Assembly: GCA_028275825.1 (NCBI GenBank)
Contig: JAPWTX010000017.1
Coordinates: forward strand, 1-33,913
Reading direction: 5' to 3'
DNA from: Ignisphaera sp.
Lineage (GTDB): Archaea; Thermoproteota; Thermoprotei_A; Sulfolobales; Ignisphaeraceae
Length of the DNA stretch: 33,913 bases
Shown: positions 1,890 to 29,571 of the stretch, piece after piece
Position numbering within the stretch: position 1 is the stretch's first letter
Layout: every line of letters begins with the position of its first letter
Position numbers and translations under genes: made by a program
Notes under the pieces: model-generated
Told to the model about the DNA's origin: nothing
The model's input: the letters and a program-made list of their open reading frames with translations, nothing else
Database searches by the model: none

Positions 1890-1903
1890 CCCGTGGTGAT
1901 AAG

Positions 1904-2464
1904 ATGAACAACGCCTCCAGACCTAGGAACTTTTACTACCTCTTACATCCAAGACCTGTTGTAGTGATAATAACTCTCTGCGAGGGTGGAAAAGTCAACG
2001 CTATGCCAGCCTCTTGGATAACACCAATATCTGAAGAACCTCCAGCCCTGGCTGTGGCAATAGATAGAGAAAACTATACATTTAAATGCATTGAGCAATT
2101 AAGAGAAGCAACATTTAACATACCATCGCAGGAACATGTAAACACTGTTTATGGGCTTGGAACAGTCAGTGGAAGGGAGGTGGATAAGGTGAAGATGTTC
2201 AGCCTCAAGCTTGGAAAAGCAAGCAAAGTCTCAGCACCCATATGGCTAGACGCAATAGGATGGATAGAGGGTAGGGTAGTGAACAGAGTCGACATTGGCG
2301 AAACCGCATTATACATCTTTGAAGTGCTAGACTACTACGCAAAACCAGATACGGTATCTGAATGGGGCTGGAGACTAGACAAAACCAGCCCCCTACATCA
2401 CGGAACAGGAAGGGGATTCCACACAGTAGGAAAACTAATACTAGCATCAAAACCAAAGCAATAG
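1904..2464 (+). CDS. Flavin reductase-like FMN-binding split-barrel protein
   Basis: The 186-residue length and the early motif N-A-M-P-A-S-W-I-T-P (about residues 32-41) are typical of the DIM6/NTAB flavin-reductase family. These bind FMN in a split barrel and use NAD(P)H or act as flavoproteins of unknown partner. The segment E-E-P-P-A-L-A-V-A-I-D that follows is the usual second strand of this fold, and F-N-I-P-S (about 70-74) matches the FMN-phosphate region. The start ATG at 1904 has a Shine-Dalgarno-like GTGGTGATAAG directly upstream. It follows the isomerase-fold gene by 14 bases, so the two form an operon. Which substrate or partner it serves is unknown. Confidence 0.8.
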   Translation: MNNASRPRNFYYLLHPRPVVVIITLCEGGKVNAMPASWITPISEEPPALAVAIDRENYTFKCIEQLREATFNIPSQEHVNTVYGLGTVSGREVDKVKMFSLKLGKASKVSAPIWLDAIGWIEGRVVNRVDIGETALYIFEVLDYYAKPDTVSEWGWRLDKTSPLHHGTGRGFHTVGKLILASKPKQ

Positions 2465-2502
2465 CCCTTCACAACTCTTAAACTAATACAACATTACAAC
2501 AT

Positions 2503-2518
2503 TTAAAACGCGTTTTAA
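2503..2518. repeat. 16-base perfect palindrome
   Basis: TTAAAACGCGTTTTAA is perfectly self-complementary and lies 39 bases after the flavin-reductase stop codon. It could be a hairpin at the transcript end or an operator left without its gene. No nearby start codon clearly uses it. Confidence 0.6.
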
Positions 2519-2613
2519 GATAGGAATGAAAAACAGAACTCGAACTCAATACACTATACTTTATGGCGATGAAAGAAGAGAAACAAATCCATTTCAACAT
2601 CTCCCTGAGCTCC

Positions 2614-2654
2614 ACAACTGAAAGCCTCTCCCTTTAACATAGGGAGGAAGTCAG
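2614..2654 (+). mobile_element. Collapsed IS605-type end pair (relic)
   Basis: This 41-base unit begins with ACAACTGAAAGCCTC, identical to the left end of the two larger elements at 2663 and 13452. It finishes with GGGAGGAAGTCAG, close to their right-end GGGGAGGAGGTCAG. The two ends are joined by a short CCCTTTAACATAGGG hairpin, as if an element lost nearly all of its interior. Confidence 0.45.
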
Positions 2655-2660
2655 ACTCAT

Positions 2661-2926
<266 letters not shown>

Positions 2927-3021
2927 ATAGAGCTTTATGAACCCTATAAGCACAAAATGCTACTTTGGGCTGTTTCGTGGCTGATGTCTAAGAGTTAGAT
3001 TTATAATCTCCAATATTACTA

Positions 3022-3329
3022 CTGTTGTTAATGAGGGGCAATGCCCCAATAAATCGGTGTAACAACTCCCAATGAGCTTGTGCAGCTAGCCCCAATGCCC
3101 ATTGAACCCTCTTCAGAAGGTAACAGTGCCACCACTGAAGGGATGGGTGAGGAGAAAGTTCCCAGATGCAACAAACAAACATGAAATGATGGGAATAGGT
3201 ATCTAGAGAGAAATGGATCTCTGATTGCCTCAAATGCTTTGTAGATGACGGATATAAATATGGATAGATGTAGGGAACTTGTGAACCACCTAAGGGAGGT
3301 CCTAGCCTTTTAGAGTGGGGAAGATGTCA
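3022..3329 (+). mobile_element. IS605-type right-end relic abutting the CDF gene
   Basis: It starts with a GGGGC-AAT-GCCCC hairpin at 3035-3047 and contains GC-rich stretches (about 3090-3160) like the RNA-scaffold region next to tnpB. The last 114 bases (3216-3329) align with 13608-13720 of the second element: shared blocks include GATCTCTGA, AGATGAC, ATGGATAG, GTGAACC and a GTGGGGA-GA-GTCA terminus. The relic terminus at 3315-3329 covers the GTG and the first ATG start of the CDF gene, and a TATA-like GATATAAATATGG (3250-3262) inside it is well placed to drive that gene. Confidence 0.5.
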
Positions 3330-4244
3330 AATATGGGTGGGAACTGGAAGTTGCATCCAGTGCTAATCCTATTTTTAATAAACTTGGTATCAGTATTGCT
3401 TAAACTGATAAGCATGACTGGCACAAATGCGTCAAGTGTTTTTATTGATGCACTTAACGATATTGGTGACATGGTTGGGCTTGGTCTTCTTCTTCTTGGG
3501 CTAAGCTATGAGAGAAAGAGGCAAAGCATATACTATCCTTTTGGTAGGCGTAGAGCTGTATACATCTTTACACTCCTTTCATTGATGATTTTCAGCGGTC
3601 TCATTTTTGCAGTAGCAATATTCAAAGTTGTTGCAATTATGTCAGAGACTATATCAATTGATGTGAAGCCCTATTCGCAATATGCTTTCTCACTAGCATT
3701 TCTCATTAATATTACAGGCTTTGCAATCGTTTTTCTATCTCTGCTAGACAAACAAAGAGACCCTACTCTCTCAAGTAGTTTAATAGATTCGGCTAGTGAT
3801 GTTAGTGGAAGTATAGTTGCGCTAATCACGCTAATAACACGTAACCCTGTGCTGGATATGCTAGGAAGTCTCATAATATCTGGTGTAATTCTTGTTTCGG
3901 CAATTAGTCTTGGGTATAGATACTTTCATGTATTAATTGGAAGAGCTCCATCAAAGGAGGTGCTTATGAAGATTATAAGTAAAGTTCTCGAGTTTAGGGA
4001 GGTTAGAGATGTGAATGTGTTTAATGCAATTATGATAACAGAGGATGAATATATGCTCATACTCGAAGTTGAGGTTGATAAGGATATGGAGGTTGAAGAT
4101 GTTGAAAAACTTTCTACACAGATTGAGATTGAGATAAGGAAACTTGAGCCAAAGTTTAAACATGTTATCATAGAGTTTGTGGGAGAGAGGACTGGGTCTA
4201 AAACCTATAAAGAGATTCTCAAGCAAATTGAATCTCATGAATAA
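3315..4244 (+). CDS. Cation diffusion facilitator (CDF) metal-efflux transporter, probably Mn/Fe type
   Basis: CDF proteins export divalent metals by proton antiport, as dimers in the cytoplasmic membrane. The 309-residue product has about six hydrophobic segments (residues 14-34, 40-63, 81-105, 122-143, 153-173, 180-200) and a cytosolic C-terminal domain (about 205-309) rich in E and D. TM2 carries D45-A-L-N-D49 and TM5 carries D158-S-A-S-D162. Zinc CDFs usually have a histidine at the first TM5 position, so an Asp there suggests manganese or iron, by family knowledge. The start may be GTG 3315, ATG 3324 or ATG 3333. The first codons lie inside a transposon right-end relic, so the N-terminus or at least the start signals may be element-derived. 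The gene is convergent with the hydrogenase operon. Confidence 0.88.
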   Translation: MGKMSNMGGNWKLHPVLILFLINLVSVLLKLISMTGTNASSVFIDALNDIGDMVGLGLLLLGLSYERKRQSIYYPFGRRRAVYIFTLLSLMIFSGLIFAVAIFKVVAIMSETISIDVKPYSQYAFSLAFLINITGFAIVFLSLLDKQRDPTLSSSLIDSASDVSGSIVALITLITRNPVLDMLGSLIISGVILVSAISLGYRYFHVLIGRAPSKEVLMKIISKVLEFREVRDVNVFNAIMITEDEYMLILEVEVDKDMEVEDVEKLSTQIEIEIRKLEPKFKHVIIEFVGERTGSKTYKEILKQIESHE

Positions 4245-4353
4245 AGCTTCAAAAATGTAGCAAAACTGCTTCAATATGGAGATGAAAACAGTGCTTCAAG
4301 AGCTCTGATTTGATGTTCTTGTATAGTAAATGTTGCTAACTATGTTAATGTTT

Positions 4354-5634
4354 TCAAGCTGTGATTATTTTTACTGGTAGTGCATGCACAGAACATGATA
4401 TGCATGGATCGAAGGATATAGCAATTCTCTTGGCTATGGCTATAGAGCTGGCATCAGCCTTTCTTCCACGTATAGCTACTGTTGCTATATCACTCATAGC
4501 TGCCAGGTTTTGGGCTGTTGGCGTTATTATGTCACATACTTTCACCTTTCCTATATCGACTATATACCTGTGGTAGAGTATTCCTCTAGGAGCTTCTACA
4601 GCATATTCACATACAGCACCACTTTTCGTAGATGCAATACTGCTGGTATTTGTTATTGCACTGCTTTTGAATGTGTCTAGGTATTTTTCAAGTGTTAGAA
4701 GAGCATCGTAAGCCTCTGCTATGCGGGCAACATAACTATGCATTATGCTATGCAGTGGGGGGCTCCAATCATACATCTCCACAAAGTCTCTAACCTCTTT
4801 AGATAGCTTGCTATAGCTTTGATTAAATCTTGCAAAAGGTCCTACAACAAAGCTTTCAACACCTTTAACCCTGTAGTGTAATGCTGTTGAATATTGCACT
4901 TGCATTGCTCTTGAGATGCTCTTATAGAATTCAGCAACGCTATACACATCCCCATCTAAACTCACTCTATCACTAAGGTGTGGATATTCAGATGATGAGC
5001 TATATAGCGAGACTTGATGAATCTTTACATTCTGAACTACATCAGACGGCTTAATACTTAGCACAAAACTGGCAAACTCTGTAAATGCCTTTATTACCAT
5101 AGCTATTTCCTTTTCAAGCTTTTCCACATCGCTTTTGTCCGGCACCCTATAAACCCCACCTATCTTTATATTGACAACATTGTGAAACCTTCCACCAAAC
5201 ACCTCCATGGCTTTTCTCGACCACATCAACACATCTTGAGCATACCTTGAAATTTGAGGATTCCGTTGTAGGAATTCTGCAAATGACTTTGCTTGTGCAA
5301 TTTCCGGCAGGTTCATGTAGAACACGTGAATCACATGACTCTTTACTCTTTCCGCTAGATGCAAAGCCGCTCTAAGCATGCGAATCTCAGGATCTACCTC
5401 TATACCAAGACATTTTTCAAAAGCTTCTGCAGCAACAAGACTATAGGAAACCCCACATAAGCCACATACCCTACTCACAATATCAACTACTCTCTCCGCA
5501 TTCCTCCCAACCACAATGTACTCGAAGAACCTCGGCGCTTCAGAAATCTCATAAAACACGTTTTCTACATAACCACCTCTCTCTACAACTAGTATACCGC
5601 CCTCTCCCTCAACCCTGGTCAACACAGCCTTCAT
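4354..5634 (-). CDS. hydA: Sulfhydrogenase alpha subunit (NiFe hydrogenase large subunit)
   Basis: This is the catalytic subunit of a cytosolic NiFe hydrogenase, resembling group 3b sulfhydrogenase (NADP-linked in Pyrococcus). The 426-residue length matches. R-V-E-G at residues 7-10 supplies the conserved proton-relay Glu. The L1 motif is R-V-C57-G-L-C60 and the L2 motif D-P-C411-I-S-C414-S-V-H417 is intact. The nine residues after H417 would be the peptide removed after nickel insertion. The usual L1 histidine (CxxCxxxH) is replaced by Tyr64. It is the last gene of hydBGDA and overlaps hydD by 4 bases. No maturation genes (hypA-F, peptidase) occur in the window and must lie elsewhere. Confidence 0.92.
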   Translation of the reverse strand: MKAVLTRVEGEGGILVVERGGYVENVFYEISEAPRFFEYIVVGRNAERVVDIVSRVCGLCGVSYSLVAAEAFEKCLGIEVDPEIRMLRAALHLAERVKSHVIHVFYMNLPEIAQAKSFAEFLQRNPQISRYAQDVLMWSRKAMEVFGGRFHNVVNIKIGGVYRVPDKSDVEKLEKEIAMVIKAFTEFASFVLSIKPSDVVQNVKIHQVSLYSSSSEYPHLSDRVSLDGDVYSVAEFYKSISRAMQVQYSTALHYRVKGVESFVVGPFARFNQSYSKLSKEVRDFVEMYDWSPPLHSIMHSYVARIAEAYDALLTLEKYLDTFKSSAITNTSSIASTKSGAVCEYAVEAPRGILYHRYIVDIGKVKVCDIITPTAQNLAAMSDIATVAIRGRKADASSIAIAKRIAISFDPCISCSVHALPVKIITA

Positions 5635-16616: not shown

Positions 16617-18041
16617 GTGTGGATAATGCCTATGTTTGTAAAGGTCATAGCATCGCTAGGACCTGCAAGTAGCGATACTGCTACTATTTTTGGCATGGTT
16701 AAGCAGGGGGTATCTGGCTTTAGAATAAACTTTTCGCATGGTGCTCCAGATGACTGGGCCAAGTATGTAGATGTGGTTAGGTCTGCTGAAGCTAGGTTTG
16801 GGAAGGCTATTGCTCTTATAGGTGATTTGCAGGGGCCCTCAATTAGAATTGGTAAGGTTGAGCAACCAATTGTTTTGAAGAAAGGTGAATCTGCTAAGAT
16901 TGTATTTGGTGGTGAGGCTAAGGGGGGTGATGAGAAGGTTATTCCAGTGCCTATTCAAAGATTTTTTGAGTTTATTGATGAGGGTGATATCCTTGTTATG
17001 GATGATGGAAGGACTAGGCTAAGAATTGCTGATGTGCAGCCAGATTATGTAGAGGTTGTTGCACTTACAGATTCTGTTATAACTTCTAGGAAAGCTATTG
17101 CTACATATGGTAAGGAAATAGATCTGCCCCCACTTAGTGAGAAGGACTTTGAGAATGTGAAGTTTGCCCTCGAACACAACTTTGATTATATAGGGCTTAG
17201 CTATGTGAGGAGCGGAAGTGATATAGATATTCTCAGGGATTATCTTAGGAGGATTGGAAGAGAAGATATTGGGGTTGTAGCCAAGATAGAGACTAAGAGC
17301 GCTGTAAAGAACCTTGACGAAATTGTTGAAAAATGCGATGTTGTTTTAGTTGCTAGGGGGGATCTCGGCATGAATTTCGGTCTTGAGGAGATACATGCGT
17401 TGCAGAGTAGGATAGTGGCTAAAGCCCTTGAAAGCAGGAAACCAGTTATAGTAGCAACCCAGCTTCTAGAGTCAATGGTAGAGAAACAAGTGCCTACAAG
17501 AGCAGAGGTTGTTGATGTTAGCACAGCTATTGAAATGGGTGTAGATGCCCTCATGCTAACTGGAGAAACATCTGTAGGAAAATACCCTCTAGAAGCTGTT
17601 TCATGGCTCACTAAAATAGCTAACTTCATTGAGAAGGAGACGCTGAGAAAGCAGTTAAAGGTAGTTGTAGAAAAAGCTAGGAGTAGGATAGATAACCTTC
17701 CAATAATGTTTGCAAAAGGTGTTTTGGAGCTCGCAGAAGATATGAATGCAAAGCTCGTGGTTTTCAGCATGCATGGAAACACCGCGAGGAGGTTATCAAC
17801 ATTAAGACCATCAATACCAGTTTATGTAGGTTCATCTAATGTGAATGTATTGAGAAAACTCGCTATTCTATGGGGGCTTCAGCCACTATATGTCGAAGCT
17901 CAGGGATATGAAGATGGATTGCAAAAAACTCTGCAAAAAGCTATAGAGTCGAATTATGTGAGTTATGGGGATCTTGTAGTAGCGACCTACGGTCTTAAGG
18001 AGCCTAGGCAGAGAATAGAGATTCAAAGAGTTGTGCACTAG
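16617..18041 (+). CDS. pyk: Pyruvate kinase
   Basis: The last step of glycolysis: phosphoenolpyruvate plus ADP gives pyruvate plus ATP, in the cytosol. The 474-residue length is normal. The order of motifs is K-V-I-A-S-L-G-P-A-S (9-18), R-I-N-F-S-H-G (about 37-43), D-L-Q-G-P (about 69-73), and M-D-D-G-R. The catalytic region V-V-A-K-I-E-T (about 220-226) holds the active-site lysine. A-R-G-D-L-G-M, A-T-Q-L-L-E-S-M and P-T-R-A-E-V follow, then a C-terminal regulatory-type domain (about 355-474). The start may be GTG 16617, ATG 16626 or ATG 16632; the last two match the usual distance to the first motif. The stop codon shares the palindrome CTAG with the stop of the convergent VWA gene. Confidence 0.96.
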   Translation: MWIMPMFVKVIASLGPASSDTATIFGMVKQGVSGFRINFSHGAPDDWAKYVDVVRSAEARFGKAIALIGDLQGPSIRIGKVEQPIVLKKGESAKIVFGGEAKGGDEKVIPVPIQRFFEFIDEGDILVMDDGRTRLRIADVQPDYVEVVALTDSVITSRKAIATYGKEIDLPPLSEKDFENVKFALEHNFDYIGLSYVRSGSDIDILRDYLRRIGREDIGVVAKIETKSAVKNLDEIVEKCDVVLVARGDLGMNFGLEEIHALQSRIVAKALESRKPVIVATQLLESMVEKQVPTRAEVVDVSTAIEMGVDALMLTGETSVGKYPLEAVSWLTKIANFIEKETLRKQLKVVVEKARSRIDNLPIMFAKGVLELAEDMNAKLVVFSMHGNTARRLSTLRPSIPVYVGSSNVNVLRKLAILWGLQPLYVEAQGYEDGLQKTLQKAIESNYVSYGDLVVATYGLKEPRQRIEIQRVVH

Positions 18042-19351
18042 CTTTGCACTACTTGCAAAATCTCTTTATCGGAAAGCTTCACAACCTTCATATACTCATC
18101 ACTCACTGTTTTGAGATCTTCGTTGTCACCCAAAATCATGACTGAGAGTAGTCTTGCCTTAGCATGTTGCAAAGCTTTTTTCACAAGGTTTTTCGCTATC
18201 CTGTCCTCCCCATCTGTAATTAAAATCACATCACTAGCTTCTTTAAAACCAAGCTTCATCATATCATTGCAAGCTGTGAGAAGAGCCTTTGATATATCTG
18301 TACCTCCACCATTTCTCACCATAGCTATGTACTCCAAGAACTTGACAACCTGACTTGGCTTAGCATTTGGTCTAACAGCTATGGATTCATAGGGCTCAGA
18401 GTCAAAGAACCTCATGTAAAAAGCCCTCCTCTCAAGCCTGCTCCTAATAAAGAGAGCTAGTGCAGTTGCTTTTGCCCACAGAATCTTGTTTCCATCCATG
18501 CTCCCTGATTTATCCAGTAAAACATATATAGGCCCCATGGTCAAGTACATCACCTTTTCAAACAGCAGTAAATCACCTTCTGCTACCTTTGTATAGAAGT
18601 ATACATCTGGATAAGCGAGCTCTGTATATACTATTCTTTCAACATCTGAGCCCCTGGTATACCCCTCGATCTCGCCTCTCTGATACCCAACCCTCCTCTT
18701 TTTCACAGCCATTGTTACATCAGGTATTCTGCTCAATACATTTAAAAGATTCCTTATATCAGTGTTTTTAGCAAGCTTTAGCACAGACGCTACATCATCA
18801 TCTAGATTCAACATGTGCCCTACACCAGCTTTATATCCATAAACAAAATTCTGAATCTCCTTCACATTTTCAGCTGCTTCCATACTTTTTCTAGCAGCAT
18901 TCTTAACAGCTTCCTCTAGACTCTTTCCACCCTCACCTGTGTCATCATGCTCTTTCTGCTGATTCCTCATACCATTCTCCCCTTTTCCACCACCCTGAGC
19001 ATAATTTTTCTCATTCCCTTCACTAAGCTCAGATAGGAGGTTAAGCAAGAATAGCGTGCCAATGGCGACAGAAGAAAAGCTGTCAGCAACAGTATATAGT
19101 CTCAGCTTCTTTACCTCCTCATCCATTAGAATAGTTTTTACAATCCTATACTGATCGTTTCTACCTAGAGAAACCTCAGAAACATCAGCTAAGCGTGGAA
19201 AGGGTAAGTAGAGACTGTAATATATATCTATTGCTAGATCTAGCGAAATATTTCCCCCACTCCTCAACTTCCTCAAGTTATCTAGTATCTTCTGCCCCTT
19301 GTACCTGGTGAACGGATCTTGGTAATCTATGTTCTTAAGTACCCCAGGCAT
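18038..19351 (-). CDS. VWA-domain protein (ViaA/CoxE-like), partner of the MoxR ATPase
   Basis: The C-terminal half is a von Willebrand factor A domain with an intact metal-ion-dependent adhesion site: D280-K-S-G-S284, G-G-G-T351-D and I-T-D380-G-E-D. The overall pattern resembles bacterial ViaA and CoxE-like proteins, which work with a MoxR/RavA AAA+ ATPase as a chaperone pair acting on metalloenzymes or membrane complexes. The N-terminal 250 residues are mostly helical, with a low-complexity, G/E/K/N-rich stretch at about 109-145. There is no signal peptide, so it is cytosolic. The ATG follows the moxR stop codon with no gap, and GGTAGGT upstream serves as a ribosome site. It is the last gene of the ABC/giant-protein cluster. 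Confidence 0.88.
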   Translation of the reverse strand: MPGVLKNIDYQDPFTRYKGQKILDNLRKLRSGGNISLDLAIDIYYSLYLPFPRLADVSEVSLGRNDQYRIVKTILMDEEVKKLRLYTVADSFSSVAIGTLFLLNLLSELSEGNEKNYAQGGGKGENGMRNQQKEHDDTGEGGKSLEEAVKNAARKSMEAAENVKEIQNFVYGYKAGVGHMLNLDDDVASVLKLAKNTDIRNLLNVLSRIPDVTMAVKKRRVGYQRGEIEGYTRGSDVERIVYTELAYPDVYFYTKVAEGDLLLFEKVMYLTMGPIYVLLDKSGSMDGNKILWAKATALALFIRSRLERRAFYMRFFDSEPYESIAVRPNAKPSQVVKFLEYIAMVRNGGGTDISKALLTACNDMMKLGFKEASDVILITDGEDRIAKNLVKKALQHAKARLLSVMILGDNEDLKTVSDEYMKVVKLSDKEILQVVQS

Positions 19352-20530
19352 TTACCTACCCTCTATCTTTCTTCTTATCTTCTCAAGAAGCTCATTTATC
19401 TGCTCAACTACCTCCACAGCCTTTTTATGTACATTCTCATCCTCACTTTCTTTAACTATAGACAAGACGCGGTCTCTTGTGGATTCAAGGTCACGGTATA
19501 TCTCAAGAAGTCTATACTCAACAAATCTAGAATTGACTACAGGGAAGGATGCTATGTAGTTGCCCACCTCTCTAACACTTATCTGTATCTCCTCAAGTTC
19601 CCTAAGATACTTGTAGGGAGTCTTTAACTCCTCCGCCAGAATTATGTTGACTTTCTCAAAGTCGTCTATGTCATGGGGTGCTACAAACTTTAATACAATG
19701 AGATCTTCTTCAATGGCCTTGAACCTTCCATTAAGTAGAGCATTTGCAGCTATTACTTTAAGTATTTTGCCCTTTCTCCTATCGGTTAAATGTATATTCT
19801 TTGATTCCAGCACAGAAAATAGCTTAAGAAGTTTTGACTCTACAGTACTCAAATCCACTTCAAATACAGCGCCTTGTAATCTCTGTAAAACACTTTTATC
19901 AATTGTTGCTTCAGGCTTTGGATAACCACTCTTCTCTATTTCCCACGCCTTTCTGAGCAAATTCTTCCAAAGCTCGTCTGGCACAGGCTTTACATAGTGT
20001 CTTAGCAAGAACCTATCATAGAGAGCTTCTAGTTCAGGCTCCTGGGGAACCTCATTGCTTGCTCCAAACAGGCTCCATAAAGCTACTCTAATCTCTGTGT
20101 AGCCATCATAGAAAAGCCTCTCATTCATAATGGTTAAGAGGGTGTTGAGTATAGCTGAGTTAGCCTTGAAGATCTCATCGAGAAACACTATCTCTGCTTC
20201 AGGAAGCTTGTTTGTAGTTATTCTCACATACCTGCCCTCCTTCAATGCATTTATATCCAGGGGTCCGAAGAGCTCTGCTGGCTCTGTGTATTTTGTCAAA
20301 AGGTAAATAAAGCATTTCATGTTGAGGAGCTGCGCAATTCTCCTAATCAATGCACTTTTTGCTGTGCCTGGCTCTCCTATTAATGTTGCATGCTCTTTTG
20401 TTAAAAGAGCTAAGAGGATTACCCTGGCTTCCTCCTCCCTTCCAACAAAAGGCTTTGATAACTCCATCAAAAGCTTTTGCAAAGTAGATAGCTCGCCACC
20501 ATCATGCTGGTTATCCACTTGTTTCGCCAT
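19352..20530 (-). CDS. MoxR/RavA-type AAA+ ATPase
   Basis: AAA+ ATPase with Walker A G-E-P-G-T-A-K-S, Walker [11 protein letters not shown] and the N-E-R-L-F segment. A sensor-1 region G-A-S-N-E-V-P-Q and L-E-A-L-Y-D-R-F follow, a combination characteristic of the RavA branch of MoxR. About 150 C-terminal residues are helical and probably carry the lid. Such ATPases couple ATP hydrolysis to the VWA partner encoded immediately downstream. I choose ATG 20530; the frame extends to a GTG at 20551 (7 more residues). Either start overlaps the end of the peptidase gene, so translation is probably coupled. The stop codon abuts the VWA start. Confidence 0.92.
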
Positions 20531-22076
20531 GCCCACACTTACAGACCTCACACACTATATACTTTAGTAAATCTATATTAAATTTATAGCTTTCATAACA
20601 CTCAACAGCATTCCGCAAGCCGTTGACAGGAATGTTAAAAGTATTACTGAAGCACTGTAGAAAAGCTGTGAATTCTCTTACCCCAAACTTATTACCTATA
20701 TCAGAATTGACAAAAGTCCTTGTAGACACTCTTGTAAAAACCTTGAAAATACTCCAAACACTGTACTCACTGCATTTCCTTAACTCCTCAAAGAATGAGT
20801 AAAGCGATTCTGCAACATCAAGATTTACACCACCTTGCCTCACTATCTCATTACTCAAAACAGACTCAACATCTCTAAGCACATATCTATCTCTATACTC
20901 AGCTATCTTCTTAAGTATCTGCACAGCTTTTTCAGTAAATACCTCAATAGTGTTTATACTGATGGACTCGAGGGCATCTAACTCACTGTGGTAAATACCC
21001 CTAGTGATAGCTTCTTGGAATGAGTGAAGCGTTAGTGATGGTAGACCTGCTTGGGTAAATGAGAAAGAGTCGAAGACTATGCTATCATTTTCAATAGTGT
21101 TCAAATCCCTTAGCACGCTCATGAGGATGGGATTTGATGTTGAAATCCTTGCATTCTCCCCATAAACCACATCTATGTTTACAGCCGCTAACAACTCCTC
21201 AATGAGTTTATCATAATGCTTTGCCACAAAGTGTCTAGATCCTACAAGCCAGTAAAACGAGTTCAATGTCTCTGGAAACCCTTCTTCAGCCGTGAAAAGG
21301 GCTAATGATATATCAGTATTCTTCAGGAACCTCTCTAAACATCTCCTATACAAATTTATTGCTAGTGCTACGCCTAGCACATTATCTGAGGCTCCTGTTA
21401 GCCAATGGTCGTGGTGTGCAACTAGAATCACGTTGCCCCCACCACTATGCCTCCTAGCGAGCAGGTTATAACCATGGGACTTGAATGTATGTGATGAACC
21501 AAGAACTCTGCTGGCTGATGCAGCAAGCACCCTTCTAACAACGCTTCCTGGCAGCACAATGGTGGGGATATCTAAGCTCTCTGCATTTTCATACATCGCT
21601 ACAAGCTTGTTTAAAACAACAATCCTTCTAATAGTTTCACTAGTATCAGACAATATCAGTAGCCTTGGATTTCTCGTAGATAGAATAGCTGCTATTGTTG
21701 CAATATCGTCAGGGTCTCTAGGCGTATTCACAACAACTACTTTGCCATATATTTTCTTCTCTGGTAACTCTCTGCTGAGCACTTTATCATGGTTAAGAAA
21801 AATAGTTTCACCTTCTCTAAACTCGATATCTATGCTTCCACTATACGGAGGTTGTATTGCACATCTATATGTCTTACCTTCAACCTCTACATAGCAGTAG
21901 TCCTCAGTCCATGTGGTAACAGGGACAGGTTCTAACACCACTTCATCCGAACTTTCCTCCACAAAGCTCCTGATGTACTCAAGTAAGGAGAGCTCACTTT
22001 GCATACCTCCAACAACTTCTCCAAACCTCGCTATAGAACTAGCAGTATTCAGAACATCTCTAAAATCTATAATCAT
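20511..22076 (-). CDS. M28-family-like zinc metallopeptidase (cytosolic)
   Basis: The 521-residue protein has the ordered two-zinc ligands of peptidase family M28: H221-H-D223 in A-H-H-D-H-W, D231 in A-S-D-N, E264-E265 in F-T-A-E-E-G, D302 in N-I-D-V-V, and H363 in I-Y-H-S-E-L-D. It should be an aminopeptidase-type hydrolase. Residues about 80-200 form a separate alpha/beta insert of PA-domain type ahead of the catalytic core. The C-terminal 150 residues are helical, and the last nine hold C-x-C-x-H. There is no signal peptide or membrane segment, so it appears cytosolic, unusual for a gene next to an exporter. It starts 6 bases after the permease stop and overlaps moxR. Confidence 0.85.
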
Positions 22077-22082
22077 CTCTCT

Positions 22083-23309
22083 TCACTCATATCTGAGGGC
22101 AACGGCTGGAGGTATTCTAGAGGCTCTGTAAGCAGGAAAAATACCGCCTGCAAGACCTATCAAGATTGTTAAAGTCATTGTTCTGGCTACATTTATTGGA
22201 GTTATTTTTGGAGGGGCTTTTATGACCATAACTGTAGTTGCAGCAGCTCTAATCTCGAATCCACGTGATGCAAGCATGTGGGCTCCTACAACCCCTAAAA
22301 ACATCCCTATAAACCCTCCAATTAGGCTCATAACAATGCTTTCCATAAGTATCATTACCAATACCTGTATATCGGTAAAACCCAGGGACTTGAGGAGCCC
22401 TATCTCCCTAGTTCTCTCAATTACAGAAGTTATCATTGTGGCAGCAACTCCTGCAATAGCAACAGCAAAGGCTGATAAAGATGCTGCAAACGATATAAAA
22501 TTCATTGCACCTATTATAGAGTTTGCTATGTTCGCTATACTCTGGAATGAGATTATGTTTGCAGAGTTTCCAAAAATATTTTGCAGCTGCTTCATAACCT
22601 CTGGGACATAGGCACTACTCTCTACAAGAACAAATACACCACTCCACTCACTTAAACCAAGCACTCTTTGCCCAGCTACAAGAGGTAAAAATATAGTGGT
22701 ATCGGGGCTCAGAATAAATGCACCGCCAAACTCATTCAGAACCCCTGCAACAGTTATAGATGCTCTCTTCACCTCTGACTTACCCTCAGAGGTCTTGATA
22801 TATGTTATTGTAATTACATCGCCAAGATCGTAAACCATGTTCCCATTATCATCGTAAGCAATCTTGTAGCCCACGAGAGCCTTAAGATAGTCAGTATCTG
22901 AAGGGATTGAGCCTTTGAGTACCTCAAGCCCTTTTATAGCCTCAAAAACTATATCAATGGGTATAGCATATATGAAAACTACTTTTGTTTGCGTACCTAC
23001 CTTGGCTTGAGCTTGAAGAGTGTAGAAAGGCTCAGCTCTCTTTACATGAGGAAGAGCCCTTATTGTGTCTAAATCTTTTTGAGTAAACCTATAGCCGCTT
23101 TCTGGAAAAAGCACTATTGCGTTTTGTCCAAGACCCTCAATTTGCGATATTACATAGTCTCCATAGCCATCTATAACACTAGATATCATCACCATGGCTA
23201 GAGGACCTATTGCAATGCCTACTATGGTGAGCAAAGCTCTAGCTCTTCTCTCTGTCAAAGCCTTGAATGCCAGTCTAAATATGTCGAAAACGAACTGCGT
23301 TACCGACAT
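22083..23309 (-). CDS. MacB/FtsX-type ABC transporter permease
   Basis: Four-helix permease of the MacB/LolC/FtsX class: a first membrane helix near residues 23-46, then a large extracellular domain (about 50-265, MacB core-domain like). Three helices follow at about 270-295, 315-345 and 370-395. These proteins do not form a channel for small solutes; they transmit ATP-driven motion to an extracytoplasmic partner. The segment E-R-T-R-E-I-G-L-L-K-S-L-G-F after the second helix is the typical coupling region for the ATPase. The start ATG has a strong GGAGAGG 1-2 bases upstream and lies 13 bases after the giant-protein stop, so the two are co-transcribed. Confidence 0.92.
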   Translation of the reverse strand: MSVTQFVFDIFRLAFKALTERRARALLTIVGIAIGPLAMVMISSVIDGYGDYVISQIEGLGQNAIVLFPESGYRFTQKDLDTIRALPHVKRAEPFYTLQAQAKVGTQTKVVFIYAIPIDIVFEAIKGLEVLKGSIPSDTDYLKALVGYKIAYDDNGNMVYDLGDVITITYIKTSEGKSEVKRASITVAGVLNEFGGAFILSPDTTIFLPLVAGQRVLGLSEWSGVFVLVESSAYVPEVMKQLQNIFGNSANIISFQSIANIANSIIGAMNFISFAASLSAFAVAIAGVAATMITSVIERTREIGLLKSLGFTDIQVLVMILMESIVMSLIGGFIGMFLGVVGAHMLASRGFEIRAAATTVMVIKAPPKITPINVARTMTLTILIGLAGGIFPAYRASRIPPAVALRYE

Positions 23310-23322
23310 CCTCTCCTATCCT

Positions 23323-26300
23323 CTAGTTCTTAGTGATTTCAGCAAAGCTCTTTTCAAGTGCTTTTGAATGGATCCTCACATATCTATACAAAATAATGCC
23401 TATTACTATGAGGAACGCTGCTACAAGACCTATAATGATGGTGTTATTGTATGTCACTACCTGTTGTGGAGCTGTTGTTGAGGACTCTATCTGCCTTATA
23501 GCTAGCGGTATTGTGTAGTTTAAGGTGTTTACACGCCCATAATCATCTCTATATATTAGCTGAAGCACAACTACATTGCTAGTCACACTATTTACATTCA
23601 TATCCAGTCTAAATGATGATTGCGAGGCTGGATCCACATCACCTATGAGAGTCTCTTGCCCAATGCTGCCATACATAGCTTTAATGACAACACTTCTCGC
23701 TGAGGCTATGCCATAATTTGCCACAGTTCCGGAAACAGTTATTGTTGATCCCTCAGCATTTGCTTTCGTCTCGATTAGCATGAGCTCTATGAATGGCTCT
23801 AGGATGAATGCTAGTGATGTGTTAAATACCTGAAGATCACCATAGACATCTCTATAGACAATTGATAGTGAGAATGGAACAGACATGTATCTGAGGTAAG
23901 TCTGGGTAGCTCCCATAGAAACTGCGAATGGGTTGTAAACCAGTGTAAAGCTGATATTTGTGAGCATGTATGGATTCAAAACATCTACATATTTAACTGC
24001 TTGCTGAGGTATGAGCATAGCTGCATATGGAACCAGATAGACATAGACGTTGTAGAGAGGTGCTGAACCCCTGTTTATCAGCCCTATGCTAACGCTTGCC
24101 ACCCCCCTCTTCACAGCTATGCTTGTTGGAGCCACGACATCTACGATTTTTGCTGAGCCCAGTACATCGATCTCAAAGCTTATTGGCAGCCTTCTGATGT
24201 TATTCCACTGGTCAACAAAGTTGATAATGGCATTTGCTTTAAATGCTCCTGTCCTATTCGTAACTATGTTTAGCCTAAGGTAAAAGTACATTAAATCCCC
24301 ATAGCTAAACCCTTCTGTAGGTGTCTGCACTTGTTGTGCGAGCATTGAGGAAAGCAGTTGCGTTACTTGAACAGGTGTCATCTTCGCAACCTGGATTTGC
24401 TGCAATATATTGGTGGCTGAAGCAGGAACCCTAGTAATTGATGTGTTAGTATCTGCAGATACTATTCCAGGCGGTAGCTCCACCTCCATCACAACACCCT
24501 TCATACTTGGGTTATAGTTGTCTCTCACTACAACCATTAACAAGGCGCCGTATTCTGGAGGCTGTGGAGATCCCCCAACCCAGTAGACATTAACAACACC
24601 AATGCTGTTGTTCAAATCGTTTATGACAAGACTTATGTTAAGTTCATCCTCAACAAGCGTGTTTGGAGTCCCTGTTTCAACCACGTATTTTGCTAGAAGT
24701 TTTGCTGCATACCTACCCGGCTTAATGTTGCCAACAGATAGCTGGAGCTGTACTGTAAACTGTTGGAGACTATTTATAGGACCAGCTACATAGGCCTTGG
24801 CTGTGTTGCCCCACTTTGTGTAGAAGCCTTGTGGTAGAAGGAGATCAATGTCTATTCCAGAGACTCTGTAGGGCCACCTATTTGCTAAGGTTATTACTAG
24901 AGTTGCGTTTTCTGTATCAGGGTAAACAGGCCAGTTGTTGTTCCAAGAGGCATCAACTAGTTCAAGCCCTCTACCACTAGCAGGTTCTTCGACTGGTAAG
25001 GAAACTGTGAACTGCTTTGAATCACTTATTGCTGTGCCAAATTCTGTAAACAGATACTCTGTTACTACACTAAATATTATCATCCCTCCTCTACCTACAT
25101 AACCCAGATCAGCGTATAACGTTGCTGAGCAGAAAGCTCCTGAAGCAAGTTGCATTGAACACGCTTCGGAGCTCTTCACCATCATTACACTGGTGTTGAG
25201 GGGGCTAACCTTAATTACAACTGCTTCAACTGGGTAATAACCTAGATTGCTAAGCGTCACTGTCAAAGCAACATTTCTCTGCCCAACTAAGGCTCTAGAT
25301 GGTGTTTGGGTCCCCCAATATACTGATGCAATAGCTATTGATGGTCTGTAATATTTGTAGCTAGCTATAGGCACAGTGACTCTATGTCTCTCTGCAAATA
25401 GTGAGAGTGTTGAACCACTTCTCACTGCATATGTTAGATTCAGCAGAATTTCAACATTCTTTGCTGTGGCATTTGGAGATACATCAACATCTAGATCAAC
25501 ACTACATGTACCCCCAGCCGCAACACCATTAGCACACGTACCGCTAACATCATTTATCCTTAGCTCTGCTGGAGCTATAACCTCTGGTTTTACCCATGCA
25601 ACTTGTGTGCTCTTTGCATTGGCAAGGTCAATGGATATTGTTATTCCTCTAGCTGATGGGAGTAGGGGTGCATAAACCCCTCTAAGCGATGTGTGTAAAG
25701 AGGTTATCCGAAATACTGCTAGACTTTCAACAGTTGATAGCGTTAGGTTAAACACTTTCAAGGCCTTGTAAAAGGCATTTCTACCTGTTGTCAATACTGC
25801 TGAGATTACTAGTGTTACATGAACAGTCTTATTCTTTACCTCAACATCGCTAAACCTCATAGTCTGAATCTCACCATAATTAATAGGCGTTGTAATTACC
25901 TGAACAGCCTCGCTCAAACCACTCAAGAAACTTGCGCCAGCAAGTCTAGCCTGAGTCACAACACTTTCTATGGTGTCTATTGAGAATGACTGCAGAGTTA
26001 TGTATATCTCAGCACCACTAGAATCTACACTAATAGGGTTGTTCACCCAGCCAAAATCGGCTACTGACACATTGAGAATTGGGCTATCTATACGTAGGAG
26101 AATCGTGAAGTATTGTGTAAACCAGTATTCACTAGGAGCCCTTGCCAAGGCCTCTACCTTTACAACTACTGGGTAGAAACCGCTTTCTGGCGAGGTAACA
26201 TCTATACCTCCAACCTCAACATTTATGTACTGTCCATACCTATAATCACCGTTTACAGCAATTGTTCTACTCCTATTCCCACTCTCAAAAATCATTTGAT

Positions 26301-28029
26301 TGGGTAAGTAAATAGTGATCCTCGGGCTGGAGACTGTATATCCGGGTGCTGTAACCTGGAGGTAGAGGTATGCAGAGGCATCGATAGTTGTTGTATAAGC
26401 TCTGTCTCCACTCCAACCATAGGAGATCAGCGCTATGATATCCTTGCTAGGCTCTTCAAAAACCTTTACAGAGATTGTAAGCGTTAGGGATACTGTGTAG
26501 AAGCTGTTACTCGAAGCATCATATGCAACACCGCTTAAAATAAGCTTCGCTGGGTATTCACCTGGTAAAATGTTTGTATCTATGGATATCCCTGAGAACG
26601 CTATTTGCGTCATTGTGCCTCTACCAATATTTATTCCTGATGTAGATAATTGTTGTGGGTGAAAACCGTTAGGCAAAGTAATTGTTGCTGTGCCACTCCT
26701 AAAGTCAACAACATCGTTATTGAGTAGAACTATGTTTAGTGTTGCCCCTTCTGTCCCGGGATACACTTCGCCTGAGCTCCAGTAGGTGTTAGTCACATAC
26801 AGACTTAGTGTGGGTATAGATAACCTCACTTCAAAGCTGTACCACTGCTCACTCCAGAACTCAGCACCATTATTATCGCCAAATATGACGAGCTTTACAG
26901 AAATTAGCATGTAATTAACATTGCTAACTGTAATGGGGTCTGAATATATTGTCGTGATATCACTATAGCCAAGAGCTTGCTGAGATACTGTAACTGATGT
27001 TGTAGATGAATTTGCAAATATTGCTCCAGGAGACTGTATCTTGAAGTACGTTACAATGCTTCTAACGTTCTTGAAATCCATGTTCCTAATAACTATGTAG
27101 AACCTCGCTAGATTAACTCCTTGAACAGGCTTCAGTGTTTCAATACCATAATCAAGAACTTGTATGTTTATTGCTGGGGCTGAGGATACAGTAACGTAAA
27201 AGGAGGTATTTCCTTTAGTATAGTAATACACATTGTCATCTGTAGACATTGTCGCATTTAAGCTAATTATAGTAAGATATGCTGTGCCTGGCGATGCATT
27301 TGGATATATAGAGACTGGGCCTATTGAAATTGTTGTTGTCTGGTTTTTGCCGAGGTTATTCGTTACCTGAAACCTATTTGCTGATTGTGTGTATAGGAAG
27401 GTATTTTGTGGAAGCATAACCTTGCCTGCGGCTTGAACAACTGTTGAGTTGCCTATATTGCGAAGTGTTATATATAGATATACCCCCTGGCTCCCAGGAT
27501 AAGCATCAGGACTCCAGTACCAGTCTGTTACAACTAGTTTAAGTGGTGGATATGGAGATACTGTTATGGTTATACCAGGAACTACATTAACGAAGGGTTG
27601 TGTACTACCCTGCAACCTATAATAAATTGTTATATTTGTACTATATGTTCCAGGACTTGTATCACTATTTACATCTATGTGATAGGTAAACACAATTATA
27701 TCCCCTGGCTCTGCAATTGTATGCGTAGAGCCATTTGCTGACTGTGGTGGAGCGCATGAGCTATAGCCTCTAGATATAGAAAAGCCTTGAGGCAGGTTGA
27801 TGCAGCCCGCAGATATGTAAGCTGGTGACGAACCGTTGTAAACTGTGTTCACTGTGATAATAACGTTTCTACTACCAGGATATATTGTATTGGTGTTTGC
27901 AGATGACTTGTAGCTATAACTCTGAAGTGCGAACACCTGGCTCTGTGCTTGGATACGCGAAATAAAGCTGAGTTGGCTTAATATGAGCATGAGTAAGAGT
28001 ATTGCTGCATAGACTCTCCTTAGGCTCAC
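23323..28029 (-). CDS. Giant secreted, membrane-anchored protein with about 12 tandem beta-sandwich domains
   Basis: The 1568-residue product starts with a signal peptide (S-L-R-R then a hydrophobic stretch at about 8-24, likely cut after A-Q-A-Q-S near 28-30). It ends in a membrane helix (about 1530-1549) followed by a short basic tail. Between them a pattern of the type W-(x)n-Y-P-G-T-E-G-A-x-L-x-I-x-L-x-N recurs at about 45, 164, 289, 408, 531, 651, 771, 897, 1022, 1142, 1293 and 1415. That is about 12 domains spaced 119-126 residues apart, with one of 151. The type resembles the NEW3/CARDB-like repeats of archaeal COG1361 proteins. Cysteine pairs (C76/C92, C832/C842, C957/C967) fall within single domains and probably form disulfides. 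Many N-x-S/T sites suggest glycosylation. The start is GTG with adjacent GAGGT. Confidence 0.85.
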   Translation of the reverse strand: MSLRRVYAAILLLMLILSQLSFISRIQAQSQVFALQSYSYKSSANTNTIYPGSRNVIITVNTVYNGSSPAYISAGCINLPQGFSISRGYSSCAPPQSANGSTHTIAEPGDIIVFTYHIDVNSDTSPGTYSTNITIYYRLQGSTQPFVNVVPGITITVSPYPPLKLVVTDWYWSPDAYPGSQGVYLYITLRNIGNSTVVQAAGKVMLPQNTFLYTQSANRFQVTNNLGKNQTTTISIGPVSIYPNASPGTAYLTIISLNATMSTDDNVYYYTKGNTSFYVTVSSAPAINIQVLDYGIETLKPVQGVNLARFYIVIRNMDFKNVRSIVTYFKIQSPGAIFANSSTTSVTVSQQALGYSDITTIYSDPITVSNVNYMLISVKLVIFGDNNGAEFWSEQWYSFEVRLSIPTLSLYVTNTYWSSGEVYPGTEGATLNIVLLNNDVVDFRSGTATITLPNGFHPQQLSTSGINIGRGTMTQIAFSGISIDTNILPGEYPAKLILSGVAYDASSNSFYTVSLTLTISVKVFEEPSKDIIALISYGWSGDRAYTTTIDASAYLYLQVTAPGYTVSSPRITIYLPNQMIFESGNRSRTIAVNGDYRYGQYINVEVGGIDVTSPESGFYPVVVKVEALARAPSEYWFTQYFTILLRIDSPILNVSVADFGWVNNPISVDSSGAEIYITLQSFSIDTIESVVTQARLAGASFLSGLSEAVQVITTPINYGEIQTMRFSDVEVKNKTVHVTLVISAVLTTGRNAFYKALKVFNLTLSTVESLAVFRITSLHTSLRGVYAPLLPSARGITISIDLANAKSTQVAWVKPEVIAPAELRINDVSGTCANGVAAGGTCSVDLDVDVSPNATAKNVEILLNLTYAVRSGSTLSLFAERHRVTVPIASYKYYRPSIAIASVYWGTQTPSRALVGQRNVALTVTLSNLGYYPVEAVVIKVSPLNTSVMMVKSSEACSMQLASGAFCSATLYADLGYVGRGGMIIFSVVTEYLFTEFGTAISDSKQFTVSLPVEEPASGRGLELVDASWNNNWPVYPDTENATLVITLANRWPYRVSGIDIDLLLPQGFYTKWGNTAKAYVAGPINSLQQFTVQLQLSVGNIKPGRYAAKLLAKYVVETGTPNTLVEDELNISLVINDLNNSIGVVNVYWVGGSPQPPEYGALLMVVVRDNYNPSMKGVVMEVELPPGIVSADTNTSITRVPASATNILQQIQVAKMTPVQVTQLLSSMLAQQVQTPTEGFSYGDLMYFYLRLNIVTNRTGAFKANAIINFVDQWNNIRRLPISFEIDVLGSAKIVDVVAPTSIAVKRGVASVSIGLINRGSAPLYNVYVYLVPYAAMLIPQQAVKYVDVLNPYMLTNISFTLVYNPFAVSMGATQTYLRYMSVPFSLSIVYRDVYGDLQVFNTSLAFILEPFIELMLIETKANAEGSTITVSGTVANYGIASARSVVIKAMYGSIGQETLIGDVDPASQSSFRLDMNVNSVTSNVVVLQLIYRDDYGRVNTLNYTIPLAIRQIESSTTAPQQVVTYNNTIIIGLVAAFLIVIGIILYRYVRIHSKALEKSFAEITKN

Positions 28030-28048: not shown

Positions 28049-28072
28049 TTTGTGTGTCTATAGACACACAAA
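28049..28072. promoter_or_regulatory. Palindromic operator upstream of the giant-protein gene
   Basis: A perfect 24-base palindrome with half-site TTTGTGTGTCTA lies 20 bases before the GTG start at 28029. On the minus strand a TATA-like GCTTAAAAAC (about 28078-28087) sits just upstream, so the palindrome covers the expected transcription start. Its core GTGTCT-N2-AGACAC is shared with the site at 28867. Confidence 0.7.
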
Positions 28073-28093: not shown

Positions 28094-28801
28094 CTATTGC
28101 AATATATTGAGAATGCACTTGCTTTTATCTGGCTCTCTAACGCCAATTATCATACCGTCTCTAATCATGTAGATTTTCTGTGTGCAGTTCGCTACTTCAG
28201 GGTCGTGTGAAACTAGAACTATTGTTGTACCCAATTTGTTGAGGTCTAGAAAGGTTTTCACCACAATCCTTGCACTTGCTCTATCTAGGTTTCCCGTGGG
28301 CTCGTCTGCTAGAATCATCTTTGGATTGCCCACTATAGCCCTAGCTATAGCAACTCTCTGTTGCTGACCTCCAGATAATTGTAGTGGCTTTTTCGGGAGC
28401 CAGGAAGGGTCCCCAGCTGATTTAATTAGTGCTTCCCTAGCCATTTCAACTCTCTTAGGCTTCGGTATTCCCCTAGGTATCAGAGGCATTTCTATGTTTT
28501 CCAGCACTGTAAGTCTATTTATTAAGTTGAAGAGCTGAAAAACAAAGCCTATCTTCAGGTTCCTTATCTTAGCAATATCCTTGTCTCTAAGGCGAGTTGC
28601 ATCAATACCATCTATAAGTATCCTCCCACTTGTTGGCCTATCTAAAAGCCCCATCATATTTAAAAGTGTTGTCTTTCCAGAGCCAGAGGGGCCCATTATC
28701 GATACGAAGTCTCCCTCATATATCTTTAACGAAACTCCCTGGAGTGCTCTAGTGACTATCTCTCCAGCTCTATAGATTTTGACAACATTCTCTAGAACCA
28801 T
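28094..28801 (-). CDS. MacB/LolD-type ABC transporter ATPase
   Basis: This ATPase drives the MacB/FtsX-type permease encoded two genes downstream. Counting from ATG 28831, the motifs are Walker A G-P-S-G-S-G-K-T-T (47-55), Q-loop F-Q99, signature L-S-G-G-Q-Q-Q-R-V (152-160), Walker B M-I-L-A-D-E-P-T-G (172-180) and V-S-H-D. All residues needed for ATP hydrolysis are present. I place the start at ATG 28801 because family members begin with a sequence like M-V-L-E-N-V-V-K-I-Y and GAGAGGTT lies directly before it. ATG 28831 (10 more residues) is possible. A palindromic operator and TATA box lie upstream. An operator and possible second promoter lie between this gene and the giant-protein gene. 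Confidence 0.94.
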   Translation of the reverse strand: MVLENVVKIYRAGEIVTRALQGVSLKIYEGDFVSIMGPSGSGKTTLLNMMGLLDRPTSGRILIDGIDATRLRDKDIAKIRNLKIGFVFQLFNLINRLTVLENIEMPLIPRGIPKPKRVEMAREALIKSAGDPSWLPKKPLQLSGGQQQRVAIARAIVGNPKMILADEPTGNLDRASARIVVKTFLDLNKLGTTIVLVSHDPEVANCTQKIYMIRDGMIIGVREPDKSKCILNILQ

Positions 28802-28866
28802 AACCTCTCTAGCCAACACCCTCCACCTCATCGACTACTGTAAAGCTTTTCTTACAATGCTTTTCA

Positions 28867-28884
28867 TTGTGTCTACAGACACAA
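28867..28884. promoter_or_regulatory. Palindromic operator upstream of the ABC ATPase gene
   Basis: TTGTGTCT-AC-AGACACAA has two exact 8-base arms and repeats the core of the site at 28049-28072. It lies 36 bases before ATG 28831. On the minus strand it directly follows a TATA-like TTTATAAGG, so it overlaps the expected transcription start. TGT-N-ACA dyads of this kind are usual targets of PadR-family winged-helix regulators, and such a gene is divergent at 29023. Confidence 0.68.
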
Positions 28885-29022: not shown

Positions 29023-29571
29023 TTGACCAGAAGCACTAAGCATTTGGATGAAACCAGAAGCATCATCGATATAGAGTTTCTGCTTGTAAATGTAAGAGGG
29101 TTTTTCAGAGACCTCGTGCTCTACACAATTGCTAAGTTAGGTAAAGCCTATGGCTATGCTATAAGGAGATTTATATCCCAGAACATGAGGATATATGTGC
29201 CAAGTAGTGGTATTCTTTATCCAACACTCCATGAGCTTGAAAAAGAAGGGTTATTGAAATCAAGTACTGAGGGTAAGAGAAGAGTATATATGCTTACAGA
29301 AAAAGGTTGTGAGTATTTATCTATAAGGATTGAATCAATAGAGAAGATGATTAGGAAGATTAGCAGAACCATCGAATTAATGGAGTATGTAGGTTTTAAA
29401 GAACTCTTTGAAACCCTAAAGAAATTATGGGAGTTAGAAGTAGAACCTCCAAAACCTGTGCTTGATGCTATAAAGGTTAAGATAATGGAAATAAATGCAA
29501 TTCTAAGCGAACTACCTAGATCCCCACCCACATCAACAGATATTTCAAATCCAGCCACCTCCACACCCTAA
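29023..29571 (+). CDS. PadR-family winged-helix transcription regulator
   Basis: The DNA-binding domain spans about residues 28-100: D-L-V-L-Y-T-I-A-K-L-G-K-A-Y-G-Y-A-I, then S-G-I-L-Y-P-T-L-H-E-L-E-K-E-G-L-L (recognition helix and following helix), then the wing R-R-V-Y-M-L-T-E-K-G. This is the PadR signature. The remaining 80 residues are helical and probably form the dimerisation region. The start is uncertain: TTG 29023 gives 182 residues, TTG 29044 gives 175, and no ATG lies in frame before the domain. It is divergent from the ABC/giant-protein cluster, whose two promoters carry matching palindromes, so it most likely represses that cluster and perhaps itself. Confidence 0.9.
   Translation: MTRSTKHLDETRSIIDIEFLLVNVRGFFRDLVLYTIAKLGKAYGYAIRRFISQNMRIYVPSSGILYPTLHELEKEGLLKSSTEGKRRVYMLTEKGCEYLSIRIESIEKMIRKISRTIELMEYVGFKELFETLKKLWELEVEPPKPVLDAIKVKIMEINAILSELPRSPPTSTDISNPATSTP

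Follow-up and report, generated by a model that had tools for sequence, protein, structure and literature searches.

Features of the locus

The window analyzed here is a stretch of 33,913 nucleotides from the heat-loving archaeon Ignisphaera sp. (assembly GCA_028275825.1, contig JAPWTX010000017.1, forward strand). An open reading frame with a GTG start on its minus strand (23323–28029) encodes, as judged with the help of a family alignment, a 1568-aa anchored multi-domain extracytoplasmic protein, referred to below as the long protein. The signal peptide covers residues 1–29 (27943–28029, minus strand; hydropathy, with an AF2 helix at residues 3–23), and the C-terminal membrane helix covers residues ~1533–1555 (23365–23433, minus strand; hydropathy and AF2), followed by a short basic cytoplasmic tail. 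Both segments had been proposed in the initial annotation and both were recovered.

Between these two segments twelve domains were delimited on the minus strand by profile comparison and AF2. Domain D1 (residues 30–159, 27553–27942) would form the membrane-distal tip and carries Cys76 and Cys92, both invariant in family alignment A1, and it is followed by D2 (160–285, 27175–27552). The middle block D3–D7 (286–894, 25348–27174) shows the most whole-domain gain and loss, as seen also from domain counts and a permease tree. Next come D8 (895–1017, 24979–25347), D9 (1018–1142, 24604–24978), which from conservation per domain is the most conserved of all domains, the long unit D10 (1143–1294, 24148–24603) and the membrane-proximal D11–D12 (1295–1518, 23476–24147), a separate domain class. 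Further cysteine pairs lie inside D7 (Cys832/Cys842) and D8 (Cys957/Cys967), and the pairs are thus confined to single domains, as had been noticed earlier.

A recurring motif had been described at a spacing of 119–126 residues, which is right within 1–2 residues: by profile alignment its equivalents in D1–D10 are at residues 51, 178, 303, 424, 546, 668, 791, 915, 1037 and 1157, giving intervals of 127, 125, 121, 122, 122, 123, 124, 122 and 120 (range 120–127). The literal YPG/YPD-S/T motif is present in 4 of the 12 domains; the motif profile gave no position in D11 or D12, and the single interval of 151 residues was checked by eye only. A longer domain 11, possibly with a distinct insertion, had also been reported; the long unit exists, but it is D10. 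Its extra piece (residues 1208–1233, 24331–24408, minus strand) is predicted at low confidence by AF2 as two short helices, 1208–1215 and 1219–1233 (pLDDT blocks 54–60), at a site common to the members of alignment A1.

Directly upstream of the long gene, on the same strand, lies an ABC ATPase gene of MacB/LolD type (28094–28831, minus strand) with a Pfam ABC_tran match of 5e-34, NCBIfam matches of LolD/MacB/FtsE type and the Walker A, LSGGQ and Walker B motifs. A permease gene (22083–23309, minus strand) begins 13 bases past the long gene, and its product has the MacB periplasmic core at residues 26–244 (PF12704, 9e-21) and the FtsX C-terminal domain at 275–401 (PF02687, 2e-17), both far above cutoff; its hydropathy gave three strong and two marginal stretches at the threshold used, with no clear fourth near the C-terminus. 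By these sequence matches the two neighbours qualify as components of a Type VII ABC system, that is, a permease of MacB_PCD plus FtsX and an ATPase of LolD/MacB/FtsE type. The initial annotation had read the long protein as a stalk, tether or ruler. The long anchored beta-sandwich chain stands and a spacer role is favoured, but a free-standing stalk or S-layer ruler is disfavoured: the gene lies inside an ABC-transporter operon, and the reading therefore shifts to a partner arm of the transporter.

Genes for an M28 peptidase, a MoxR ATPase and a vWA protein (18038–22076) follow closely after the permease gene on the same strand, and this order is kept in six related loci (L034, L035, L038, L040, L043 with a gap of 1.6 kb, and L051). 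The source genome also holds a second, distinct module of ATPase, NEW3-CARDB protein and permease (L112, G000:C84:40660-51892), whose partner protein of 1131 aa, at 1603–4998, consists mostly of D11-like domains.

Domain homology and predicted fold

The family alignment was cut into twelve units and all 66 profile pairs were compared. Probabilities above 90% were obtained for 38 pairs and above 50% for 47, and none of the 66 pairs passed 50% in the column-shuffled and reversed control profiles, so by profile comparison the repeat units are homologous beyond chance. D1–D10 belong to one class, and D11–D12 form a pair of their own (96%) which is weakly tied to the other domains.

AF2 was run on two overlapping halves, residues 1–900 (33 sequences) and 778–1568 (45 sequences), giving mean pLDDT of 89.0 and 86.7, respectively, and 6–10 strands per unit. 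The earlier count of about twelve beta-sandwich domains in one anchored protein is borne out by the profile relations and by AF2, which builds all 12. The domains themselves are confident, and the pTM of 0.42–0.49 in the two halves means that AF2 leaves the relative orientation of the units undefined, so the chain may bend. Beyond the signal peptide and the anchor, neither model contains a long helix fit for a coiled coil. In a fold search both halves matched many long multi-domain beta proteins, including those of the axoneme central apparatus, alpha-2-macroglobulins, mastigonemes and S-layer proteins, with large rmsd (~13–77 among the matches listed); run on predicted models, the search confirms chained beta-sandwiches and singles out no one relative. 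Pfam NPCBM_assoc/NEW3 (PF10633) matched only once in the long protein, at residues 797–860, with 24.8 bits against a cutoff of 24.4, that is, just above. NPCBM_assoc and CARDB matches were found in its relatives, and among eight relatives scanned for PF10633 six were above the cutoff, one was below and one had no match.

Variation of domain number

For the close class, per-domain profiles were counted in 51 rows, fragments cut by contig ends having been dropped. These rows have 13, 12, 11, 10, 9, 8 or 7 domains, while distant relatives have about 3–10, their detection being less sure. The last three domains (D10-D11-D12) are present in 51/51 rows, the first domain in 50/51 and the first two (D1-D2) in 47/51, and most of the length differences lie in the stretch from D3 to D9; in the 13-domain form D5 occurs twice. 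One 8-domain member (L047), which has lost D5–D8, is nested among 12-domain relatives in a branch of the permease tree that has full support. This tree of 50 rows requires the domain number to have changed nine times or more, a rough minimum, since the tree was built quickly and some of its long branches were flagged. Over 20 rows the best-conserved domains are D9, D11 and D12, and D1-D2 are somewhat better conserved than D5–D7, the differences being modest. The chain has most likely been lengthened and shortened across lineages by gain or loss of whole domains, and the constancy of both ends around a middle that varies by entire domains favours a spacer role.

Distribution of the gene triad

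The search covered 98 genomes, namely the window's own and its relatives, with a permease match threshold of E 1e-10 or better. Matches to the long protein were found in 56 of them and to the permease in 72; in a wider sample of the phylum 236 of 349 genomes gave long-protein matches, many of them weak and partial. A single scan yielded 48 named loci from Desulfurococcales, Desulfurococcaceae, Ignisphaera, Thermosphaera, Zestosphaera, Pyrodictiaceae, Thermoprotei/Thermoproteota, Sulfolobales and one Nezhaarchaeota; these rows are not all independent: judged by length, L059 and L145 come from one contig and L044 and L138 from another, and further duplicates may exist. The permease gene is directly downstream on the same strand in 47 of the 48, often with a 4-base overlap, and the remaining locus stops 101 bases past the long gene. 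Fifteen loci had no room for an ATPase gene and were left out of that count; among the 33 with room it adjoins in 28 (25 upstream, 3 divergent) and is not adjacent in 5. The Nezhaarchaeota module has 7 domains, and its permease is almost identical to that of another genome of the same phylum (L067, L131).

The reverse test started from 39 permease rows of the same order, weaker than the orthologues; G063:C80 was left out as a piece of an orthologue by identity, and 37 loci (38 rows) were examined. A NEW3-type neighbour was found in 26 of these 37, with 10/10 in a first set chosen mostly from the stronger rows and 16/27 in the rest. The 11 loci in which this partner is missing comprise six in which the ATPase gene comes directly after a MacB-type permease gene with no long partner (L178, L180, L181, L182, L187, L188), three short permease frames (L189, L190, L192), one with no ATPase in view (L184) and one cut near the contig end (L186). 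A separate armless permease class thus exists, and this makes the pairing of arm and permease in the other class more telling.

In 29 other regions chosen for long-protein matches (L148 not counted) the permease adjoins in 26. The order in L128 and L129 is permease, ATPase and a short NEW3 protein, with the three genes still together, and L125 has no permease at the threshold used. The ATPase gene of L135 stands just after the permease gene and not before the long gene. Overall the module recurs across the phylum with 3–13 detected domains.

Since the gene is nearly always beside ABC genes, its product is most likely the long outer arm of that machine. A surface adhesin or receptor, in which the ABC linkage would be mere co-regulation, was considered because CARDB/NEW3-type domains are found in surface proteins, CARDB being described as an adhesion module. 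The linkage nevertheless persists in many families, even where the gene order has changed, and the tip and membrane-proximal domains are both conserved, unlike those of a fast-changing adhesin, so that this explanation is very improbable.

Comparison with S-layer dimensions

A beta-sandwich domain is about 4 nm long. The 5–7 domains detected in the f11 genomes, which we take to be Sulfolobaceae and whose arm proteins have about 830–880 aa, would therefore span ~20–28 nm. This length fits the Sulfolobales envelope, for which passages of two papers give a width of about 25 nm (PMC5744192) and maps of 25–28 nm (PMC6911244). The agreement, together with the repeated beta domains and the C-terminal anchor, speaks for a stalk or ruler which, like SlaB in Sulfolobus, would hold the S-layer at a set distance from the membrane; the ABC genes would then be helpers of secretion or assembly.

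Two other cases point the opposite way. At the same length per domain, the 12 domains counted in Staphylothermus (G035, taken as S. hellenicus, and its congener G075) would extend less than 50 nm, which is too short for the S-layer stalk of 70 nm given for Staphylothermus marinus in a passage of PMC5744192. The genome taken as Thermosphaera aggregans (G085) keeps a member of 1187 aa, a 9-domain size, and a passage of PMC3035292 describes this species as having no detectable S-layer. A lattice protein, moreover, would not need the permease that is linked to the gene in nearly all named loci. A ruler length should track the height of the S-layer and a ruler should be absent where no S-layer exists; of the three cases compared, Sulfolobales would agree with this and the other two do not. 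From the Thermosphaera and Staphylothermus cases a simple ruler is not supported, the plain S-layer ruler was rejected as the main reading, and we regard a stalk or ruler of this kind as quite unlikely.

PadR gene and putative operator

A gene for a PadR-family regulator (29023–29571, plus strand; PF03551, 9e-14) is divergent from the ATPase gene, and a phosphoribosyltransferase-domain protein (PF00156, 29928–30701) is encoded next to it on the same strand. The palindrome TGTGTCTGTAGACACA lies upstream of the ATPase gene (28868–28883) beside a TATA-like stretch and the palindrome TGTGTCTATAGACACA lies upstream of the long gene (28053–28068); by eye, both are just downstream of TATA-like stretches, where a bound repressor would block transcription. 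They share the pattern TGTGTCTRTAGACACA, for which shuffles expect 0.01 matches in the window, and elsewhere in the genome only one other match was found, with two mismatches.

A divergent PadR gene is present in 9 of the 33 loci examined. In these nine the operator pattern occurs before the long gene in 7 and before the ATPase gene in 8, against 2/24 and 0/16, respectively, in loci without a divergent PadR gene; as the pattern was defined after inspecting the loci, these counts are descriptive and not an independent test. A palindromic putative operator common to the linked promoters is what a PadR-controlled operon would be predicted to have, and the two palindromes of the window agree with this. 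Given such control in part of the lineages, the substrate may plausibly be a noxious hydrophobic compound or peptide, and the confinement of the PadR link to these few loci means that inducible detoxification cannot be the whole story.

A regulator like FtsEX-EnvC, in which the ABC complex would pull the arm and so switch an envelope enzyme or remodel the S-layer in growth, was also considered. The ABC class is the same as that of FtsEX, the broad distribution in the phylum suits a housekeeping function better than detoxification, and an M28 peptidase gene stands downstream of the permease in 6/48 loci. Against this, the M28 gene is found in few lineages, no enzyme accompanies the module in all of them, and in some lineages PadR control points to inducible use. 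We consider such a regulator unlikely, though less so than a stalk or ruler.

Interpretation

The reading which we prefer is that of a dedicated extracytoplasmic partner arm of a Type VII (MacB/LolCDE/FtsEX-like) ABC complex, and taken whole it is probable. That the long protein is a partner of the ABC complex is very likely, whereas an arm which carries motion or substrate outward has somewhat less than an even chance. More speculative, and on balance doubtful, is a Type VII machine acting tens of nanometres from the membrane, in which ATP-driven motion would run through the chain to a conserved tip and the reach would be tuned by duplication and loss of whole domains between fixed ends.

In the proposed mechanism the C-terminal domains and the membrane helix would stand beside the permease, whose ATP-driven movements would do work at the outer membrane surface of the cell. 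Either this motion or a substrate taken from the outer leaflet would be passed along the chain, tens of nm out to the conserved tip D1-D2, and the long protein would thereby take the role of a MacA-type adaptor without forming a tube. PadR would repress the transcripts of the ATPase and of the arm and permease until a ligand comes, plausibly a toxic hydrophobic compound or peptide. The long protein has no pore, lipoyl or long hairpin part for conducting a substrate, which counts against this reading, as do the 5 of 33 loci with no adjacent ATPase, the 11 of 37 weaker permeases that lack the partner and the possible bending of the chain; its build, one anchored chain with neither barrel nor hairpin, favours an arm or tether over a tube. 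The partner role is drawn by analogy from Type VII and Gram-positive MacAB-like systems. Contact with the permease, stoichiometry and substrate are likewise inferred, gene order being indirect evidence for the contact.

Known systems and value of the data

A passage of PMC12646458 describes Type VII ABC systems as using ATP to drive work outside the membrane and as being usually defined by a partner protein, and a passage of PMC5985334 states that Gram-positive MacAB-like systems keep an adaptor and that SpMacA corresponds in height to the extracytoplasmic zone. Type VII ABC systems and proteins of the NEW3/CARDB class are each known; searches of open-licence papers brought up no description of a conserved archaeal triad of this kind with an arm of variable length. 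The word 'archaea' is absent from the text of a MacB review, and in passages of another paper a COG1361 protein of Thermoplasmatales is treated only as a putative S-layer protein.

Transport or force across the space between membrane and S-layer is poorly known in single-membrane archaea. The conserved ABC triad, whose arm differs in length by whole domains, provides a concrete system for such studies, in which arm length, operator and permease contact are all testable. It also places a large class of proteins, until now named no more precisely than S-layer-domain or hypothetical, in a setting linked to function.

Like MacAB, YknXYZ and SpMacAB, the triad joins an ATPase and a permease of MacB type to an extracytoplasmic partner that is anchored in the membrane and encoded beside them. 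It differs in that the partner here is a linear beta-sandwich chain with a C-terminal anchor and without TolC, whereas theirs is an HlyD-type adaptor with hairpin, lipoyl and barrel parts; an HlyD-type adaptor was rejected for the long protein, which has no such Pfam match and for which AF2 gives beta-sandwiches in all twelve units. LolA, EnvC and TesA have a domain make-up unlike that of the long protein. LolCDE-LolA, FtsEX-EnvC and YbbAP-TesA share with the triad the ABC class and a function defined by the partner, according to a passage of PMC12646458, and the triad differs from them in belonging to the phylum Thermoproteota. Archaeal surface proteins with COG1361/NEW3/CARDB domains have the same domain type, but the long protein is tied to an ABC operon and barely reaches the Pfam cutoff. 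Lastly, SlaB and the tetrabrachion stalks, as described in passages of PMC5744192 and PMC6911244, are membrane-anchored, beta-rich and extended outward, as is predicted for the long protein, while the latter is ABC-linked and shows no long helix for a coiled coil in the AF2 models.
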